Source: Candidatus Levyibacteriota bacterium (GTDB lineage: Bacteria; Patescibacteriota; Microgenomatia; Levybacterales; UBA12049). Taken from it: a stretch of 37,780 nucleotides of DNA. The position numbers and the translations under genes are program-made. This document shows positions 7,581 through 11,310 of the stretch, in pieces (the stretch's first letter is position 1; each line of letters begins with the position of its first letter). The notes below the pieces were generated by a model, which ran no database searches, was not told the origin of the DNA, and worked only from the letters and a program-made list of their open reading frames with translations. Where the stretch lies: assembly GCA_016182205.1 (NCBI GenBank), contig JACOXW010000003.1, positions 1 through 37,780 on the forward strand. Direction: 5' to 3'.

Positions 7581-8249
7581 TCAACTGATGATATTTATTG
7601 CCCGCGCTGCAATCATAGCCAAAACCACAAGTGAGATTGACCCCTGCAGCATTAAAAACCCCTTCATTTTCTTTGAAAGAACGAGCGTATCGGTAGGGGT
7701 AAATGCCATGCTCGAGTAAAACGACATGAAAATATAATCAAGAAAAGCGGGTTTCCATGCCTTCCAACCAACCAGTTCATTCACCTCTTGTGGAAATAAT
7801 AAATCAGCCTTCAAAGACCTGGTATCTTTTTCGTGTGCTCTTTTTATCGGCCCACCTCTGTCTAAAAGCCAGTACCACATGGCAAAAATCAGCACATTAG
7901 AAACCCAGATTAAAAAAGCGTCCCAAAGAATTACTACTCCAAGCTTTTGTTGCGGAAGCGTAATTACAAGCGTTAGTACATCACGGACTAACAAAACAGT
8001 AAGAAATATATTTACTGTAAGAAGAAGTTTTCGAACAAGTTCTTTTTTATTATAGGAAATAAGAACCAATGCAACCGCAATAACCAGAAGATGAGACATC
8101 GGAATTACTACCCAAAATGCAGGACCGAAAAAAGATGCAATCGTTTTTGCAGTGGAAATTTTTGTTGACAAAGATGTATGAATTACCCCAAGAATAAGAA
8201 GTGCTATAAATACCTGTATATCATATGCGCGTTTTTGTAATACCTCCAT
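7581..8249 (-). CDS. Multi-TM membrane protein, DUF1345-like
   Basis: Several TM segments; C-terminus FLDYIFMSFYSSMAFTPTDTLVLSKKMKGFLMLQGSISLVVLAMIAARAINI resembles DUF1345; own promoter TTGACA-17-TACCGT-6-ATG. Confidence 0.65.
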   Translation of the reverse strand: MEVLQKRAYDIQVFIALLILGVIHTSLSTKISTAKTIASFFGPAFWVVIPMSHLLVIAVALVLISYNKKELVRKLLLTVNIFLTVLLVRDVLTLVITLPQQKLGVVILWDAFLIWVSNVLIFAMWYWLLDRGGPIKRAHEKDTRSLKADLLFPQEVNELVGWKAWKPAFLDYIFMSFYSSMAFTPTDTLVLSKKMKGFLMLQGSISLVVLAMIAARAINIIS

Positions 8250-8307
8250 ACACTAACGGTACGGACATTTTTACCAAATGTCAATCTGTTTTCCTTTGCA
8301 GTAGTAT

Positions 8308-8337
8308 AAAAAAGCTCTCACTTTTTCAAGTGAGAGC
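8308..8337 (-). terminator. Intrinsic terminator of the ncRNA
   Basis: GCTCTCACTT-GAAA-AAGTGAGAGC (10-bp perfect stem) followed by TTTTTT on minus strand. Confidence 0.9.
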
Positions 8338-8535
8338 TCGAGGTGAGACGTGTGCGAGTCGCCAGGGAGTTGGACCCTGGTCTGCTATCTCTCTCCCCAG
8401 TGAGATAGCTGCTCTTGCGTTGAGCTAGCGGCTCATATGCACCATCAACTTTCACGTCCTTTCATGCGTCCTTGAGCTCGCGATTAAACGGCTGTAAGAT
8501 AATGGCGCATTGGTTGTTCTTTTCCCATTACACCA
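8308..8535 (-). ncRNA. Candidate structured ncRNA with tRNA-like core (unassigned)
   Basis: Minus strand: predicted -10 TATATT (8547-8542), start ~8535; helices GAGCTC/GAGCTC, GGACGTG/CACGTCT, GAGCCGC/GCGACTC, D-like arm GCTC-AACGCAA-GAGC, GCTATCTC-N10-GAGATAGC, T-like arm CAGGG-TCCAACT-CCCTG; ends in intrinsic terminator 8337-8308. Confidence 0.65.
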
Positions 8536-8568
8536 AAAACTAATATAAAAGAAGGCAAAGGTAAAATC

Positions 8569-8584
8569 TGTGATAAAAATCACA
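8569..8584 (-). promoter_or_regulatory. CRP/FNR-family operator
   Basis: TGTGATAAAAATCACA on plus strand = TGTGA-N6-TCACA; centre 8576.5 is -41.5 from predicted ncRNA start 8535 (class II spacing). Confidence 0.65.
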
Positions 8585-8612
8585 CTTTTCAAACTTTAAG
8601 AAGAATTTTATC

Positions 8613-9326
8613 CTATACGACACCCAGCAAGTATTTTTTGCGGACATCTGAGGAGTAATGCTCTATGGCATAACGAAGACATGTCCTCGGCATTGCTTTA
8701 TAGTGTTTTACAAGAAAGCTACTCAAAATTTCCCGTGAACATCGTTTGCCCACTTCCCGAAGCATCCAACCGACAGCTTTGTGGATTAAATCATGATCAT
8801 CGTGCAACAATATTCTTGCTATGCGAAAAGTCTCTTTGTACTCTTTCTTTTCCTTAATAAACTGGTATGTTGCAATTACGGCAATCCGTCTGTCCCATAA
8901 CGAATCAGATGTGGCAAGTTTTGTTAGAATTCCTGTGGATCTTTCCAATAAGTACCCTCCAACTATTTTATCTGCTGATAAGTCAACTAAATCCCAGTTA
9001 TTTATATACGCGGTATGGGAGAGATAGAAGTTGTATATTCGCTTTCGGATTTCATTTGATCCTTTTTCAAACTGAAGAACAAGAATAAGAAGCCCCAGCA
9101 AACGCTCCTCATGAATAGGAGACATCAGCAATGTCTCAACGTTTGAAAAGTTTAGTTCGCTATATTTTTTGGCAATCAACCGCAAGTTTGGCACTGTCAC
9201 GCCAATAAATATATCACCATGGCCGTACTCTCCTTCTTTTGTCTTGAAAAACTTTTGCAGCAGTGCTACTTTCTTTGGATTTGCGACATGGTGAAGGTCT
9301 TTTCGTAACTTTATTACCGACTGCAT
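8613..9326 (-). CDS. DNA alkylation repair protein, AlkD-like HEAT-repeat
   Basis: FFKTKEGEYGHGDIFIGVTVPNLRLIAKKY, ...NNWDLVDLSADKIVGGYL, ...KAVGWMLREVGKR; AlkD family pattern; TTGACT-17-TAGCAT-6-ATG. Confidence 0.9.
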   Translation of the reverse strand: MQSVIKLRKDLHHVANPKKVALLQKFFKTKEGEYGHGDIFIGVTVPNLRLIAKKYSELNFSNVETLLMSPIHEERLLGLLILVLQFEKGSNEIRKRIYNFYLSHTAYINNWDLVDLSADKIVGGYLLERSTGILTKLATSDSLWDRRIAVIATYQFIKEKKEYKETFRIARILLHDDHDLIHKAVGWMLREVGKRCSREILSSFLVKHYKAMPRTCLRYAIEHYSSDVRKKYLLGVV

Positions 9327-9398: not shown

Positions 9399-9746
9399 TT
9401 ACAGAGAGTGCCGTAAAGACCGTTTATCAAAATAAAGACTGTTTGAAGAAAAATGCTTTCCCTTGTATACCTCAACTGCTCTTATGAGCGAGTCAAATGC
9501 GATTTGAATAGTACTTTCTATATCTGCGCCGCCGAAATTTACAACCAACGGCTTTTTGGGAAGAGTCAATACCATTGATCCACCAAAGTGATGTTTTTTT
9601 TCATGTTTTTTTATAAATATGGCAAGTATTGGTAAGGACGACTCAAACGAAGTCAAACGTCTAGATATTTTTTCTATCTTTTTTTCAATATGTTGCTTTT
9701 CTATGGCGGTAAGAAGAAATCCTTTCGTTGTGATCCGATACTTCAT
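9399..9746 (-). CDS. HPF/RaiA-like ribosome hibernation/interface protein
   Basis: MKYRITTKGFLLTAIEKQHIEKKIEKISRRL...VNFGGADIESTIQIAFDSLIRAVEVYKGKHF; start set at internal Met of track ORF 9399..9794. Confidence 0.65.
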   Translation of the reverse strand: MKYRITTKGFLLTAIEKQHIEKKIEKISRRLTSFESSLPILAIFIKKHEKKHHFGGSMVLTLPKKPLVVNFGGADIESTIQIAFDSLIRAVEVYKGKHFSSNSLYFDKRSLRHSL

Positions 9747-9897
9747 ATCTTTAATAAAGTGGAGCAAAAAATATTCTTTGAAAATGTCCAACAAGAATAT
9801 GAATACCCCGCTTCGTCTCCAAAAATAATGCTATGAAAAATCCGATCATGTTGTTCTCCTTCATATATAAAGTCTAACCATATTCAGCAAAATTAGC

Positions 9898-9913
9898 AGT
9901 GACAAAAATCACA
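9898..9913 (+). promoter_or_regulatory. CRP/FNR-family operator between hpf-like and crp/fnr genes
   Basis: AGTGACAAAAATCACA (GTGA-N6-TCAC); centre about -43.5 from start predicted by extended -10 TGCTATACT (9937-9942). Confidence 0.55.
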
Positions 9914-9964
9914 AGGAACCTGAAGGTAAAATTTGCTATACTACACTTCATAACTTTATCTTAT

Positions 9965-10627
9965 ATGAATATTAAGGTGAGTAAATTACAAGAAGCCTTT
10001 TTCTCGACGTATCCTGCGTTTCGATATTCAAAAGGGAAAATCCTTCTTTCCGCTTTTACTCCCGCTACTCAAATCTACTACCTTAAAAAAGGCCATATTC
10101 GACAGTACCTTACCACCGCCGCAGGTGAAGAAATAACGTTTCATGTATTCCGCCCCATAGCTTATTTTCCGATTATGCTTTCATTAAGCGATACGCAGAA
10201 TGTATATTCATTTGAAGCTCTTACAACAGTCGAAGGATATAGAGCACCGGTTACTGATGTTATAGCTTTTTTAAAAAAGAATCCTGAGGTATTATTTGAC
10301 TTAACCACCAGACTTTCCCGAGGCATCACAGGGCTCCTTGTAAAAATTGAAAATCAGACATATAAAAATGCATACCTGAAAGTTGTTTCACTCCTTATTC
10401 ACCTAACCAAAATCTATGGTGAAGGAATAGGCGTAAATGGAACCACTTGTTACCGGATATCGCTTCCTCTAAGCCAAGCAAATCTTGCTACTTGGGTAGG
10501 ATTGCAACGCGAAACTCTCAGTAGACAAATAGAAATTCTTGAAAAAAGAAAAATTATAGCTTATGAAAAACATTATATTCTGATACGAAATTTTGAAGCG
10601 TTACAAGAACAAATATCTTTACATTAA
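9965..10627 (+). CDS. Crp/Fnr family transcriptional regulator
   Basis: cNMP-like N-terminus (FRYSKGKILLSAFTPATQIYYLKKGHIRQYLTTAAGEEITFHVFRP) and HTH_Crp (LPLSQANLATWVGLQRETLSRQIEILEKRKII). Start at second in-frame Met, downstream of the operator and -10. Confidence 0.9.
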   Translation: MNIKVSKLQEAFFSTYPAFRYSKGKILLSAFTPATQIYYLKKGHIRQYLTTAAGEEITFHVFRPIAYFPIMLSLSDTQNVYSFEALTTVEGYRAPVTDVIAFLKKNPEVLFDLTTRLSRGITGLLVKIENQTYKNAYLKVVSLLIHLTKIYGEGIGVNGTTCYRISLPLSQANLATWVGLQRETLSRQIEILEKRKIIAYEKHYILIRNFEALQEQISLH

Positions 10628-10738
10628 CCGTCTTTTTTTCCTTTTGACCAAAGTCACCAAAAAGCCTGACAATGATCTATGTAAATATATTGATTGTTGT
10701 ATAACTACTGCTAGAAAAATATTATTTCTCTAGCATCC

Positions 10739-10762
10739 GGAGGAAGGATTCCCGCCTTTTTT
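10739..10762 (+). terminator. Possible intrinsic terminator downstream of crp/fnr gene
   Basis: GGAGGAAGGATTCCCGCC imperfect hairpin followed by TTTTTT. Confidence 0.4.
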
Positions 10763-10765
10763 ATG

Positions 10766-10888
10766 TTACGAACTTTTTTTTGTTGATCGACTGGATTGAC
10801 CTCCTTTTTTTCCAGCCATTCTTCCCCGATGTGAATTTCTACCACCTCTCACTCTATCTTCATGTGTTAGATTATCACCACGTGGCAT
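10766..10888 (-). CDS. KGG-motif small basic stress-type protein, 40 aa (not in ORF track)
   Basis: MPRGDNLTHEDRVRGGRNSHRGRMAGKKGGQSSRSTKKSS*; AGKKGGQ as in YciG/con-10-type KGG proteins; SD-like AAAGGGGGTGAG 4 nt before ATG. Confidence 0.7.
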   Translation of the reverse strand: MPRGDNLTHEDRVRGGRNSHRGRMAGKKGGQSSRSTKKSS

Positions 10889-11034
10889 TACGCTCACCCC
10901 CTTTCACAATAAACTTTATTTATACACTACAGGATAGGTATAAGAAACACTTAAGAGGATAGGGTGGAATATGTAAGAAAACGACAAATAACAATGTTAA
11001 ACATTGCTACCTGTCAAACCGTCACTTGAGCTGA

Positions 11035-11256
11035 CTATTTGCCTTTTCCGCAGAGACGGCAAATCTTAGGATGCATCAAAACATCATATACTGCTGAAAG
11101 TCCAACCAGAATATATACAACCTGCTCTACCATAGGCCATCCGCCAACCAATGTATTTACCAAATTGTAGTTTAGAAGCCCGATAAGACCCCAGTTAACT
11201 GCACCTGCAATAACAAGAATATATGTAGCACCATGAAGTAGTTTCATTACTATCAC
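11035..11256 (-). CDS. DUF378 family small membrane protein
   Basis: LLHGATYILVIAGAVNWGLIGLLNYNLVNTLVGGWPMVEQVVYILVGLSAVYDVLMHPKICRLCGKGK; very strong SD GGAGGAGGTGAT. Confidence 0.85.
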   Translation of the reverse strand: MIVMKLLHGATYILVIAGAVNWGLIGLLNYNLVNTLVGGWPMVEQVVYILVGLSAVYDVLMHPKICRLCGKGK

Positions 11257-11310
11257 CTCCTCCCTTCATACAGTGTAGAGAGAAAAGAAACAAATAGTCA
11301 AGGAGAGGAA

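Follow-up and report, generated by a model that had tools for sequence, protein, structure and literature searches.

We found that an undescribed tRNA-like non-coding RNA of a Candidatus Levyibacteriota bacterium is probably activated, as at class II promoters, by an autoregulated Crp/NtcA-like protein. Both the RNA and the gene for this protein lie within the window, the whole stretch of 37,780 nucleotides that we analysed, which comes from contig 3 of a draft genome (584 kb, 74% complete). We propose that the dyad at 8569-8584 acts as the operator of an activator-dependent, class II-type promoter: the Crp/NtcA-like protein (9965-10627) would bind it near -41.5, replacing the missing -35 contact, and once bound would recruit RNA polymerase to the hexamer TATATT. 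The same regulator would also switch on its own gene via the operator that precedes it. The product would be a non-coding RNA of ~225 nt containing a cloverleaf derived from tRNA(Lys), with a longer stem in place of the anticodon arm. The features on which this proposal draws are as follows.

8312-8339, minus strand: intrinsic terminator, a 12-bp stem and then a T run, the sole terminator found in a scan of 8200-8700
8353-8434, minus strand: tRNA-like cloverleaf (82-nt core), the minimum-energy fold, with compensatory changes in homologs
8437-8510, minus strand: 5' domain, a rod-like hairpin closed by AUGCGCC/GGUGCAU that ends 2 nt before the cloverleaf (fold z -2.6)
8535, minus strand: proposed transcription start (+1), predicted from the -10 position alone
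8542-8547, minus strand (read 8547-8542): -10-like hexamer TATATT, 21 nt after the dyad, without a -35 box
8569-8584, minus strand: CRP-type operator TGTGATTTTTATCACA, centred at -41.5 from the proposed start and found at the same offset in the related genome G060
9898-9913, plus strand: second perfect operator, AGTGACAAAAATCACA, upstream of the crp-type gene and followed after 23 nt by the -10 hexamer TATACT (9937-9942)
9965-10627, plus strand: gene for a Crp/Fnr-family regulator with an NtcA-like sensor and the recognition helix GLQRETLSR
10643-10658, plus strand: third operator-like site, TTTGACCAAAGTCACC, with one mismatch, downstream of crp

An earlier, sequence-only reading of this DNA had placed a CRP-type dyad and a TATATT hexamer at class II spacing before the RNA, and the dyad, the hexamer and the spacing were all recovered where it had put them. 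The sequence at 8569-8584, TGTGATAAAAATCACA, fits TGTGA-N6-TCACA, and the gap between it and TATATT (8548-8568) measures 21 nt; the dyad centre thus falls at -41.5 if +1 is 8535. That reading had also seen no good -35 element. Indeed, the best candidate at 17-nt spacing, CAGATT, matches TTGACA at 2 of 6 positions, and a sigma-70 two-box scan of 8200-8700 returned no promoter. A dyad centred at about -41.5 from a predicted start, with no functional -35, is the class II arrangement: CRP- and NtcA-dependent promoters of this class likewise have TGTGA-N6-TCACA near -41.5 and a -10 box, with no -35 box. The present case differs from them in its host (a Levyibacteriota-type bacterium of the candidate phyla radiation, CPR, with a tiny genome), in its target (a tRNA-like non-coding RNA) and in a regulator that falls below the equivalog cut-offs. 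The exact dyad-to--10 spacing is by itself weak evidence, because a hexamer matching TATAAT at 5 or more of 6 positions has a chance of ~1% of occurring at one given offset; the homologs described below carry the weight.

Within the 584-kb genome, exact TGTGA-N6-TCACA is present at two places. The motif DGTGAYNNNNRTCACH occurs without mismatch at two genome sites only, 8569 and 9898, which are 1.3 kb apart and both in the window, so that the genome's two best sites share one 2-kb locus. When one mismatch is permitted, the genome has 27 sites, versus 13 for the reversed control.

The gene at 9965-10627 had been read as encoding a Crp/Fnr regulator, and profile matches to HTH_Crp_2 (E 6.7e-13) and cNMP_binding (E 5.5e-10) place its protein in that superfamily. 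The protein stays under the NCBIfam equivalog cut-offs for both CRP (24.4 bits vs 266) and NtcA (56.5 bits vs 244.95), and NtcA is the closest to its sensor part among solved structures. Its recognition helix is of the CRP type, R-E-T-x-x-R. The helix of E. coli CRP carries Arg-Glu...Arg, and a helix of this kind is expected to read TGTGA. The protein that binds the dyad before the RNA is presumably this regulator.

A perfect operator also precedes the regulator's own gene, and this arrangement recurs among relatives. We compared 30 crp-homolog loci, the window's own included, all turned to the coding strand, and scored an operator as upstream when it had at most one mismatch and lay in the 150 bp preceding the matched coding region. 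Twelve of the 30 loci, all seven closest among them, carried such an operator, against a background of ~4% for random 150-bp stretches of dyad-rich loci. The strict operator pattern was DGTGAYN4RTCACH; the perfect motif was commoner than its reversed control in nine of ten genomes with such regulators, and motif sites in those ten genomes were mostly intergenic, with crp itself and DoxX, CsoR, MFS, VKOR and DsbD-thioredoxin genes among the neighbours. Individual examples are the dyads at L079, L072, L080, L089 and L069, which stand before DoxX, CsoR, VKOR, MFS and DsbD-thioredoxin genes. These neighbours suggest that this group of regulators may respond to a redox, sulfur or metal signal. Hexamers matching TATAAT at 5 or more of 6 positions were enriched at 20-26 nt downstream of the dyads (12/287 positions vs 19/1558, a tally that includes locus L014 in the wrong orientation, which gave no -10 match), and this spacing corresponds to the class II range, with centres at -40.5 to -46.5.

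In the window, an S30AE/ribosome-hibernation-like protein gene (9399-9794, minus strand) is divergent from crp and shares with it the upstream region that holds the 9898 dyad; it is immediately preceded by a 32-aa ORF that has a good ribosome-binding site.

The predicted RNA, ~225 nt and non-coding, comprises the 5' hairpin domain, the cloverleaf and the intrinsic terminator. The minimum-energy fold of the 82-nt core is a cloverleaf (-33.0 kcal/mol) with the acceptor stem GAGCCGC/GCGACUC, the D stem GCUC/GAGC, the T arm CAGGG-UCCAACU-CCCUG and, in the anticodon-like position, an arm with an 8-bp stem and a 10-nt loop. The nearest counterpart of the core is the tRNA-Lys(CTT) of the same genome, with which it nearly agrees in its acceptor, D and T arms, whereas the anticodon loop has been replaced together with its arm, T55 has become C, the D-loop GG is lost and a C4-A69 mismatch is present. 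A 7-nt anticodon loop is thus missing, and the core is not among the 33 tRNA-model matches in the genome; neither ARAGORN nor Rfam recognised it, with no RF00005 match at E 10, and Rfam at a permissive threshold gave chance matches only for this RNA and the two homologs described below. Lacking an anticodon, the RNA cannot decode; compared with pseudo-tRNAs, it is an RNA without an anticodon whose fold is conserved.

A covariance model built from this single sequence identified an 84-nt homolog in G060, a genome from the same family but another genus. This RNA (locus L166) has a crp homolog 560 bp upstream of it. The two RNAs have in common the acceptor GAGYCGC/GCGACUC, the D loop AACGYAA and the T loop UCCAACU. 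Of 24 pairs, seven are changed on both sides and still paired, whereas sliding the partner by 1-3 columns reduced this number to 0-1. A model of the two sequences then retrieved a third member in G227, which belongs to another family of the same class (locus L185), and the compensated pairs rose to nine of 24; the T loop UCCRACU is conserved among the homologs. The nearest relative sharing the RNA is a Candidatus Levyibacteriota MAG (JAGOPV010000008.1, Patescibacteria group). A fourth member was not found in more than 580 genomes, drawn as overlapping samples from the family, the order, the class, G227's family and the phylum, with search filters that, at their stricter settings, could have passed over divergent members; in these samples the family is rare. 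Other covariance-model matches that we checked were ordinary tRNAs, a DNA search for the RNA in 147 relatives gave a match to a tRNA-Lys D arm and nothing else, and of the pattern matches on viral contigs, two loci resemble ordinary tRNAs when aligned and three have no model match.

Covariation of the 5' domain between the window and G060 is weak and carries no claim, and its G060 counterpart adopts a cloverleaf-like fold that is not significantly better than shuffles (z -1.0). The G060 domain before the cloverleaf (L166 4692-4792; UAGCUCAG...UAGAGC D arm) resembles another tRNA-like unit, and two tRNA mimics may therefore stand in tandem on that transcript. The distance from the proposed start to the cloverleaf is 101 nt in both genomes.

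If the dyad is the operator of this RNA, it would be expected upstream of the RNA's homologs, with its spacing. In G060, a dyad with one mismatch, TGTGATCTCGATCAAT, starts 150 nt before the cloverleaf, an offset identical to that in the window. A site with one mismatch would fall on one given position by chance with a probability of ~5e-5. In an ungapped comparison of the 300 nt preceding the cloverleaf, G060 and the window share 26% identity, with the dyad itself as the best-matching 16-nt block (11/16). Another dyad, also with one mismatch, is found 23 bp upstream of TGTGATCTCGATCAAT. Downstream of the G060 dyad, TACTAT (4/6) follows at 21 nt and TATAGT (5/6, the best -10) at 24 nt, and the dyad centre there would therefore be at -41.5 or -44.5. 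G227 has no dyad before the RNA, and crp is absent from the genes listed in its surroundings. Across the three members, too few for statistics, a dyad is thus present where crp is a neighbour and absent where it is not. Homologs of the RNA lie near crp in two genera. The conservation that the sequence-only reading had named as a check was found in the nearest homolog: the dyad and its -150 offset recur in G060, whereas G227 has no dyad and the best -10 in G060 sits at 24 nt. Further points against the proposal are that the crp-type protein of G060 is only 31% identical to the window regulator, that its gene has no dyad upstream, and that no clear terminator was seen by eye in G060 or G227. Because only three members of the RNA were found, this conservation rests on few sequences. 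These comparisons support the promoter dyad as a phylogenetically supported candidate operator of an undescribed tRNA-like RNA family. The claim that the tRNA mimic belongs to the regulon of the nearby Crp/Fnr protein likewise gains support from the G060 dyad, the operators before crp homologs and the CRP-type helix, all of which point to such a link.

We considered other explanations for this arrangement. The dyad could be a real operator at which the regulator represses, lowering RNA synthesis until a signal arrives, or its spacing from the -10 could be incidental. In some homologous crp promoters (L009, L010 and L014) the dyad does sit as a repressor site might, overlapping the best -10 or 8-14 nt from it. 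Repression nevertheless appears unlikely here: the RNA promoter has no -35 box, and across the clade -10 boxes concentrate 20-26 nt from dyads. From the missing -35 box and the enriched -10 boxes we infer activation over repression.

The region might instead be a leader or attenuator of the membrane-protein gene at 7581-8249 (minus strand), with the fold and terminator controlling read-through and the Crp site regulating that gene. The terminator does lie ~60 nt before this gene on the same strand, and a cupin gene comes next on the strand of the RNA in G060. Downstream genes differ at all three RNA loci, however, and the next gene in G227 is convergent; a leader role is therefore not common to the loci. 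Rfam also gave no T-box or other riboswitch match, and we consider this explanation improbable. Still more improbable is a tRNA-Lys pseudogene in decay with a dyad that matches by chance: the likeness of three arms (acceptor, D and T) to tRNA-Lys(CTT) of the same genome and the rarity of the RNA among relatives fit this idea, but seven to nine compensatory changes, the conserved T loop UCCRACU, the terminator and the same-offset dyad in G060 are unexpected under decay.

What an activated RNA of this kind might do can be approached by comparison with known systems. Non-translating pseudo-tRNAs elsewhere are thought to occupy tRNA-binding proteins, and bacterial Y RNAs (YrlA) are structured non-coding RNAs in which a tRNA-like module is joined to another domain, a likeness to the RNA described here. 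Identity with a YrlA/Ro60 system was rejected: no Ro60/TROVE protein was found in the own genome (74% complete) or in 99 relatives, and Rfam gave no match. By analogy with the pseudo-tRNAs, a decoy or substrate role with tRNA-binding proteins is the most likely, and the RNA might perhaps occupy these proteins (processing or modification enzymes, a synthetase, EF-Tu) under the sensed condition. We hold only tentatively, as something rather less than an even prospect, the broader proposal of a conserved Levyibacteriota module in which a Crp-type regulator activates itself and a mimic with a tRNA-Lys body that adjusts tRNA processing or translation in response to a metabolic or redox signal. If true, this would define an undescribed non-coding RNA family and a Crp-type activator wired directly to a tRNA mimic.

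The closest precedent is tRNA-Other of Bacillus cereus, a pseudo-tRNA outside translation that lies within a larger RNA, is iron-regulated through Fur and keeps a Trp anticodon (PMC3399842). The window RNA would likewise be a non-translating, tRNA-like part of a longer transcript under a metabolic regulator, but that regulator would be of the Crp type, and a longer stem takes the place of the anticodon arm. A search of the open-access literature found no CPR tRNA-like RNA and no relevant paper on CPR Crp proteins.

Transcriptional regulation and non-coding RNAs of CPR bacteria are little known. Here, a single operator motif, readable from sequence, would place both the regulator's gene and an undescribed tRNA-like RNA under one regulator. 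The motif also predicts targets in relatives (DoxX, CsoR, VKOR and DsbD-thioredoxin neighbours) and offers specific sites that can be tested in organisms where manipulation is difficult.

Several smaller observations concern the surrounding loci. Upstream of the crp-type gene of G060, a CsoR repressor gene adjoins a gene for a heavy-metal-binding-domain/MauE membrane protein (L166 114-1048). The G227 RNA (L185 1143-1472) adjoins a gene that by eye resembles one for an SPW-repeat protein, and in G049 (L068) a Pfam SPW-repeat gene flanks a dyad. Finally, the third dyad of the window (10643-10658) is followed by 650 nt without a listed ORF of 80 aa (10660-11310), a stretch that could hold another RNA.
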